A DNA stretch of 64,000 nt, taken from Halostella limicola (GTDB lineage Archaea > Halobacteriota > Halobacteria > Halobacteriales > Natronoarchaeaceae). Numbering within the stretch: position 1 is the first letter of the stretch; every line of letters starts with the position of its first letter. Shown one piece after another: positions 24,884 through 26,659 of the stretch. The position numbers were made by a program, and so were the translations under genes. A model generated the notes under the pieces. That model was not told where the DNA came from. It saw only the letters and a program-made list of their open reading frames with translations, and made no database searches. The stretch lies in assembly GCF_003675875.1 (NCBI RefSeq), contig NZ_RCDI01000001.1, positions 1,178,001 through 1,242,000 on the forward strand. The letters are read 5' to 3'.

Positions 24884-24962
24884 TACTACGTATAGGGCCT
24901 CCACTCATTTAAGTCATCGGAGAGATGTGATATCGTTTACCACGACGCGGCCGCCGCGTCGT

Positions 24963-25078
24963 CGCTCACTCGTCTTCCAGCAGCGCGTCGTCGCTCACTC
25001 GTCTTCCAGCAGCGCGTCGTCGCTCACTCGTCTTCCAGCAGCGCGTCGTCGCTCACTCGTCTTCCAGCAGCGCGTCGT
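24963..25078. repeat. Four perfect 29-bp tandem copies over the E1-alpha stop codon
   Basis: Identical 29-base units start at 24963, 24992, 25021 and 25050, with a further partial copy (cgcgtcgt) at 24955-24962. The stop codon of the E1-alpha gene (25053-25055) is inside the unit nearest the gene, so each unit, read on that strand, encodes DDALLEDE and a stop. Three full copies lie beyond the stop codon and are not translated with the gene. The period is not a multiple of three, so expansion inside the coding region would shift the frame. Confidence 0.95.
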
Positions 25079-26162
25079 CGCCGTGGCGCTCGCGGAGGTC
25101 CGCCAGATACGCCCGCTGCTCCCGCAGGCCGTCGGTCGGCTCCGCGTAGACGTGTTCGAACATCTCCGCCGGGTTCCCCTCGAACGCCTCCGCTTCCTCG
25201 ATCAGTTCCGATAGCGTCGCGTCGATCGCCTCGTCCATCGCGGCGACGCGGTCGTCGTCGACGATCCCCCGGTCCCGGAGAAACGCCTCGAAGCGGTCGA
25301 GCGGATCCCGCTGTTTCCAGCGCTCGACTTCCTCGTCCTCGCGGTAGACGGAGGGGTCGTCCGCCGTTGTGTGCGCGCCGAAGCGGTACTGAACGGCCTC
25401 GATCATCGTCGGCCGCGGCTCGTCGTCGGGGGCGACGGCCTTCTCGCGGGCCGCCTTCGTCGCGACGAACGTCGCCAGCGGGTCCATCCCGTCGACCTGA
25501 ACCCCCTCGAAGCCGTAGGCGTGGGCCTTCTGCGCCAGCGTCTCGCTCGCGGTCTGCTTCTCGCGCGGGACCGAGATGGCCCACTGGTTGTTGTTGCAGA
25601 AAAACACCGTCGGCGTGTCGAACACGCCGGCGAAGTTCATGCCCTCGTGGAAGTCGCCCTCGCTGGTCGCGCCGTCGCCGAAGTGGACCAGGCTGGCGCG
25701 CTCGTCGCCGTTCAGCTTCGACGCCCAGGACCAGCCGACGGCGTGGGGGACGTGGTCGCCGATGGTGATGTTGAGCGGGAAGACGTTCGCCTCGGCGATG
25801 GCCGAGTTGCCGCGCTCGTGGCCCATCCAGTAGATCAGGTACTCCCAGGGCATCTCGCGGGCGGCGACGGCCCCGTGCTCGCGGTACTGGTAGAAGATCG
25901 TGTCCTCGTCGGCGAGCGCGTACGTCGAGCCGATCTGCGACCCCTCCTGCCCGGCTAGCGAGGAGTAGGTGCCCATCCGTCCCTGCCGCTGGAGGCTGGT
26001 CATGCGGTCGTCGAAGCGCCGGCAGAAGCGCATGTCCCGGAGCATCGACGCCAGCGTCTCGTCGTCGAGGTCCGGGACCAGATCCGGTGCGACGACGTTC
26101 CCGCCGGCGTCGAGAACACGCACCGTGTCGTCGGGAGCCCGGTCGAAGAGGTCGCGTGGCAT
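25053..26162 (-). CDS. 2-oxoacid (pyruvate-type) dehydrogenase E1 component, alpha subunit
   Basis: A 369-residue TPP-dependent E1-alpha. The thiamine diphosphate motif is GDGATSEGDFHEGMNFAGVF to NNQWAIS. QYREHG and HVPHAVG are typical of the active-site region, and YRFGAHTTADDPSVYR carries the phosphorylation-loop equivalent. In haloarchaea such proteins act with E1-beta, E2 and E3, but no such genes are beside it, so the substrate (pyruvate or branched-chain 2-oxoacid) is uncertain. The ATG at 26162 was preferred because MPRDLF fits the family. The 3' end is part of a 29-bp tandem repeat. Confidence 0.92.
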   Translation of the reverse strand: MPRDLFDRAPDDTVRVLDAGGNVVAPDLVPDLDDETLASMLRDMRFCRRFDDRMTSLQRQGRMGTYSSLAGQEGSQIGSTYALADEDTIFYQYREHGAVAAREMPWEYLIYWMGHERGNSAIAEANVFPLNITIGDHVPHAVGWSWASKLNGDERASLVHFGDGATSEGDFHEGMNFAGVFDTPTVFFCNNNQWAISVPREKQTASETLAQKAHAYGFEGVQVDGMDPLATFVATKAAREKAVAPDDEPRPTMIEAVQYRFGAHTTADDPSVYREDEEVERWKQRDPLDRFEAFLRDRGIVDDDRVAAMDEAIDATLSELIEEAEAFEGNPAEMFEHVYAEPTDGLREQRAYLADLRERHGDDALLEDE

Positions 26163-26268
26163 GCTGCCAGTACGGTGGTGAACGAGGACCAAAAAGGTGG
26201 GTTCGCGGGCAATACGCACCGAGCGCCGCGGAGACGGGAGCCGTCCCCCGTCCCGTGCCGGCGGGAGT

Positions 26269-26659
26269 TTACCGCTTCTCGAACCGGTGGAGCACGACCT
26301 CGCTGTCGTCGTGCCACTCGAAGTGCTCGTGGGCGTGGTTCAGCATCCGGCGGTACTCCTCCAGGTCGTCGAAGCCCTCCTTCCGCGCGTCCGCGTCGGT
26401 CAGGTCGCCGAGCGTCCGCTCGGTCACCGCGACCACCTCGAACGACTCGCCGTCGACGGTGAACTCGTCGCCCTCGTCGGCGTACTGGTGGCCGCGATGG
26501 ACCTTACTGTCGGCTGTAACCCCCTGAACGATATCGCCGCTCCGAGCGGCGATGACGTTCGCGTAGTTACAGCCGACAGTACTGCGTCACGTCGCCCTCG
26601 GCCGCGCCGGTGCGCATCCGCTCGCTCGGGAGCAGTTCGTCGGCGTCGATCTCGCTCAT
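26269..26659 (-). pseudogene. ASCH-domain protein gene interrupted by a 77-bp palindromic element
   Basis: Read on the minus strand, the gene begins with an ATG at 26659 and gives MSEIDADELLPSERMRTGAA, then EGDVTQ, and soon meets a TAA inside the inserted element. After the element the same protein resumes as VHRGHQYADEGDEFTVDG, FEVVAVTERTLGDLTDADA and finally DDSEVVLHRFEKR, a clear ASCH domain (an RNA/nucleoside-binding fold related to PUA). Removing 77 bases of element plus one 2-base copy restores 312 bases with no stop, a 103-residue protein, so the insertion alone explains the break. Confidence 0.93.
26505..26581. mobile_element. 77-bp palindromic MITE-like element
   Basis: Perfect 16-base inverted ends lie at 26505-26520 (tactgtcggctgtaac) and 26566-26581 (gttacagccgacagta). 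The 45-base centre contains a second palindrome, atcgccgct-ccg-agcggcgat (26533-26553). The dinucleotide AG (minus strand) flanks both ends, consistent with a 2-base target duplication. No coding capacity is present and no transposase was seen in the window. It is probably a non-autonomous element mobilised by a transposase elsewhere; the family is unknown. Confidence 0.85.

Follow-up and report, generated by a model that had tools for sequence, protein, structure and literature searches.

Mycobacterial MIRUs are short dispersed repeats that are linked to stop codons; they are not palindromes and are not known to be accompanied by a TNA duplication. The small mobile repeats (SMRs) of Haloquadratum walsbyi comprise SMR-A, of ~110 bp, and SMR-B, which is as short as 80 bp, and their mobiliser is unknown (PMC3119063). 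Members of the IS1031 group of the IS5 family are reported to insert at TNA and to generate exclusively 3-bp direct repeats (PMC12016507). Here, we examine a 77-bp palindromic element in a 64-kb stretch of DNA (the window) from a haloarchaeal genome of 4.1 Mb (G000). We consider it highly probable that this element is an unusual copy of a non-autonomous, MITE-like haloarchaeal family that is moved in trans at C-TNA-G, often onto stop codons. The features of the locus are as follows.

26505 to 26581, unstranded: the whole palindromic mobile element, 77 bp (covariance-model score 80 bits; missing at the orthologous site of relatives)
26505 to 26520, plus strand: left terminal inverted repeat, TACTGTCGGCTGTAAC
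26566 to 26581, minus strand: right terminal inverted repeat, the exact reverse complement of the left
26533 to 26553, unstranded: central 10-bp palindrome, ATCGCCGCTC-C-GAGCGGCGAT (arms 26533-26542 and 26544-26553)
26503 to 26504, unstranded: left-hand CT of the 2-bp direct repeat (coding-strand AG), where relatives have a single AG
26582 to 26583, unstranded: right-hand CT of the 2-bp direct repeat
26584 to 26659, minus strand: 5' part of the ASCH-like gene, comprising codons 1-25 plus the first base of codon 26
26269 to 26504, minus strand: 3' part of the ASCH-like gene, from the remainder of codon 26 to the stop, including the AG at 26503-26504

The initial annotation described perfect 16-base inverted ends bounding 77 bp, which the exact reverse complementarity bears out, and a 9-bp palindrome at the centre, which is present but extends to 10 bp. 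Self-complementarity covers 64 of the 77 positions, and the region, taken as single-stranded DNA, folds 8 SD better than its shuffled counterparts. The 16-bp end has no further occurrence in the 64-kb window when up to three mismatches are allowed. The window also encodes no relative of the PF01609 transposases that we fetched, and the earlier statement that it lacks a transposase holds with respect to these proteins. Elsewhere in the window, a perfect 29-bp tandem repeat (24955-25081; 4.4 copies, 100% match) lies at the 3' end of a predicted minus-strand ORF (25053-26219), with the repeat unit covering the stop region of the ORF.

Removal of the 77 bp together with one CT (coding-strand AG) yields an open frame of 103 codons that reads D-V-T-Q|V-H-R-G across the junction. 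An intact orthologue from the same genus (G002) is 91% identical, reads D-V-T-Q-V-H-R-G, and has a single AG, which together with the open frame confirms the proposed in-frame fusion of the two gene halves into a 103-residue protein. The empty site of the closest relative is GACGTGACGC-AG-GTACACCG, relative to which the window has gained 77 bp and one AG. In ten other, more distant relatives in the alignment, the gene is also intact, with one AG at the junction. A single AG in relatives versus AG-[77]-AG in the window indicates an insertion in the window lineage rather than a fixed structure; the same palindrome recurring at this site in many species, which the initial annotation named as the sign of a regulatory structure, is not what the relatives show, as their sites are empty. 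With the insertion in place, the frame ends at codon 31 with a TAA contributed by the element end, a truncation that probably abolished function. Comparison with G002 gives 11 synonymous and 9 non-synonymous substitutions in the gene, too few for dating its inactivation. The assignment of the gene to ASCH, also made in the initial annotation, is borderline. The score of the fused protein, 20.3 bits, falls short of the Pfam cut-off of 21.2, and no ASCH match is obtained for three distant orthologues.

The earlier suggestion to search the source genome and its relatives for the end sequence led to a dispersed family. A covariance model built from 20 copies detects members of this family in 158 of the 392 genomes searched within the order (~40%) and in 52 of 95 genera. 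Genome-wide copy counts, which derive from sequence searches, show additional copies with related ends in the source genome, at least 15 copies in another genome of the same genus (G004), and about 45 copies with 86 ends in a complete genome (G108), the highest number per genome. Thirteen haloarchaeal plasmid records also carry the family. The phage records searched gave no match, and viral contigs gave just single, unpaired end matches, as expected of chance 15-mers. Most copies are palindromic forms of 76-81 bp, and forms of 102-109 bp with the same ends also occur. Diverged end types (TAGGGACTGTTGTAA and TACGGACTGTTGTAG) retain both the ~78-bp length and the palindromic form. Compensating changes of stem pairs are found in 32 cells, versus 9.4 in shuffles.

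The 77-bp element thus belongs to a dispersed haloarchaeal family. The initial view of a MITE-like mobile element disrupting a gene is strongly supported by the vacant sites of relatives, by the many dispersed copies of the family, and by the direct repeats that flank its insertions. The window copy has the short length (77 bp) and 16-bp perfect terminal inverted repeats of a MITE and carries no transposase gene; the family adds numerous dispersed copies, target duplication, and empty sites, the repeat of the window copy itself being 2 bp. Literature searches, including by end sequence, returned nothing relevant and no description of the family, which is widespread, of a known kind, and apparently undescribed.

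The element could also be a non-mobile structure retained at gene ends, either a regulatory hairpin in RNA or a terminator of transcription. The hairpin is strong, its stem pairs covary, and a stop codon directly precedes about 44% of copies. However, relatives have the same site without the element, the target bases are duplicated, and no Rfam family reaches its gathering score. In copies lying between tandem genes and read in the direction of transcription, G.T (19) and A.C (28) mismatches are similarly frequent, with no excess of G.T of the kind expected from G.U-tolerant RNA pairing; the pairing is therefore not RNA-specific and looks like a DNA-level constraint, which argues against a role as an RNA hairpin. 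The empty site in relatives and the mismatch counts largely refute an RNA or terminator origin, which we regard as very improbable.

The target of the mobile family was examined by compiling 164 distinct insertions from the loci fetched. Of these, 123 are flanked by exact direct repeats of 3 bp, and in all 123 the repeat is TNA (57 TGA, 46 TCA, 10 TAA, and 10 TTA), mostly preceded by C and followed by G (C-TNA-G). For four loci (L255, L264, L266, and L090), the orthologous sites of sister species, which are 92-97% identical, are cleanly empty and have a single TNA. One family copy lies within an IS transposase gene whose homologues are empty and ungapped, and an aligned empty homologue lies on a Halomicrobium plasmid. 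At L280 (2066-2240), a member with TAGTGGTTGTTGTA ends is nested in another member at TCA, with the TCA duplicated. The sister-species empty sites and this nested insertion confirm the 3-bp duplication. At L089, L111, and L125, the ends match perfectly and the flanking triplets differ (TGA/TAA, TAA/TGA, and TGA/TTA, respectively), as expected if copies have recombined with one another.

The window copy, at C-AG-G with a 2-bp repeat, does not follow the TNA rule. The 2-base duplication proposed initially is therefore correct for this copy and does not extend to the family, in which all 123 exact repeats are 3-bp TNA. Given this uniformity, the window copy either inserted off-target or lost one base. 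Loss of a base after a 3-bp duplication of CAG or AGG is a tentative reading, to which we give somewhat less than even weight. Every exact repeat elsewhere is 3 bp, and a single deleted base would reconcile the window site; however, no 3-bp reading of that site gives TNA, and none of the aligned relatives has the same insertion for comparison. Another copy in the source genome (L075, G000:C3:1035647-1035725), with good ends and GCG/CAT flanks lacking a TNA repeat, is a second exception to the rule.

Insertion sites were then placed relative to genes predicted by a simple codon-usage gene caller, whose stop positions agree with an annotated plasmid. Among 129 insertions outside gene calls, 56 adjoin a gene end exactly, and the duplicated TNA is the stop codon. 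Reconstructed empty sites with valid repeats outside coding sequence fall at a stop codon in 42 of 94 cases (45%), against an expected 7% calculated from non-coding and stop TNA sites, or 17% with flanking-base weighting. On the annotated plasmid NZ_CP044130, 6 of 12 copies adjoin annotated stop codons. Because the copies are related to one another and the genes are predictions, p-values for this excess are to be read loosely.

The excess could reflect targeting by the enzyme or preference combined with selection. Under the latter, a preference for TNA with GC-rich, coding-like flanks would bring insertions into genes everywhere, selection would purge those within genes, and stop codons would be the sole coding-like TNA sites able to tolerate one; we put the chances of this account at about even. 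Consistent with it, the flanks of non-coding insertions are GC-richer than background, and allowing for the C-TNA-G preference lifts the fraction expected at stops from 7% to 17%. The observed 45% is nevertheless well above that value. The excess also persists in convergent regions (17 of 29 insertions at a stop versus 77 of 322 sites), where promoter damage offers no explanation, and 56 insertions lie at distance 0 from a gene end versus none at 1-9 bp. A stronger proposal, that these order-wide ~78-bp palindromic elements are inserted by machinery that actively prefers stops and duplicates them, leaving the host gene unharmed, and persist without an identifiable autonomous transposon, strikes us as doubtful.

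Which enzyme moves the family was addressed through its ends. Elements of 102-109 bp (L287, L288, and L298 in G004; L292 and L299 in G046; L290 in G117) combine the ~15-bp ends and TNA repeats of the family with unrelated, mostly non-palindromic interiors, which implies that the mobilising enzyme works on the ends in trans. An autonomous partner with such ends, which the initial annotation advised looking for, was sought by mapping ends in 40 genomes, fetching and reading many unpaired ends, inspecting PF01609 transposase loci, and scanning 1.2 Mb of fetched sequence for TNA-flanked inverted repeats. None turned up in the genomes and loci covered, and 30 PF01609 loci in 8 genomes have ends that differ from those of the family. 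Because a MITE in the strict sense shares its ends with an autonomous transposon, and these genomes and loci yielded no such partner, we use the term MITE-like, the strict definition being not fully established.

The following leads were rejected. A 1,491-bp end pair (L113 1558-3048; G108:C1:2844057-2845547) is a family copy into which a PF01609 IS has inserted, and a 1,392-bp end pair in G315 consists of two family ends around an unrelated gene. The end variant TACGGACTGTTGTAG, fetched at ten places, gave just ~80-bp copies where the partner end was seen. The PF01609 IS in L113 encodes a 437-aa transposase, and CTTTACGAAC is seemingly duplicated around it, suggesting that its insertion made a 10-bp duplication.

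Because TNA and a 3-bp duplication are typical of IS5/IS1031, an enzyme of this type most likely moves the family, whose 3-bp TNA duplication is that expected of an element mobilised by an IS5/IS1031-type transposase. The mobiliser could instead be a host enzyme or a transposon of another class, as may be the case for the Haloquadratum small mobile repeats. The genomes and loci covered yielded no partner IS, and length and palindromic form are kept over very diverged end types. Moreover, G276 has near-identical family copies yet just two weak PF01609 hits, and intact PF01609 transposases are thus scarce there. We nevertheless judge a mobiliser of this kind rather unlikely. IS200/IS605-type and REP-type movement is not known to leave a duplication. 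The regular 3-bp TNA duplication is the pattern reported for IS1031-group DDE transposases (PMC12016507).

These observations allow us to propose a mechanism for the family. A trans-acting enzyme, most likely a DDE transposase of the IS5/IS1031 type as judged from the target pattern, would recognise the ~15-bp inverted ends (TACTGYCGGCTGTAA and its diverged variants). The element would then be inserted at C-TNA-G, with TNA copied as the 3-bp duplication seen against empty sites. Many insertions coincide exactly with a TGA or TAA stop, as the statistics on predicted genes show, and the upstream gene thereby retains its stop. The window copy landed instead within the ASCH-like gene at C-AG-G, is flanked by a 2-bp repeat, and truncates the frame at codon 31.

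The family is thus a common haloarchaeal mobile repeat with a simple landing rule, unnamed in the literature searched. For annotation, it accounts for hairpins that recur directly behind stop codons and for at least one broken gene. If the enzyme itself prefers stops, this would represent a natural "safe-site" insertion strategy that is directly assayable.

Among described systems, the IS1031 group consists of full IS elements with a transposase, and the 17-bp ends of its member ISLrh, GAACCTGTCTAGTATCT, differ from those of the family (PMC12016507); the genomes and loci examined here yielded no IS1031-group IS with family ends. The SMRs resemble the family in being haloarchaeal and short, with prominent inverted ends, many copies, and no transposase (PMC3119063). 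By description, the two are set apart: SMRs are reported to lack a target duplication and SMR-A to target PATE/IS605 palindromes, whereas the family duplicates TNA and occupies stop-codon sites (PMC3119063). PATEs and other IS200/IS605-derived elements lack terminal inverted repeats and target duplication (PMC3119063), both of which the family has. REP palindromes are likewise short, dispersed, and associated with stop codons, but they are 20-40 bp long, one superfamily supplies a TAG stop, and, unlike the family, they lack a TNA duplication (PMC3733652). ERIC/RU, RUP, and comparable palindromic MITEs of bacteria are also similar, being ~100-bp intergenic stem-loops with terminal TA and inverted ends that are presumed to be moved in trans (PMC2759123, PMC3049150). 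These elements duplicate TA, whereas the family is haloarchaeal, differs in sequence, duplicates TNA, and prefers the exact stop codon (PMC2759123, PMC3049150).
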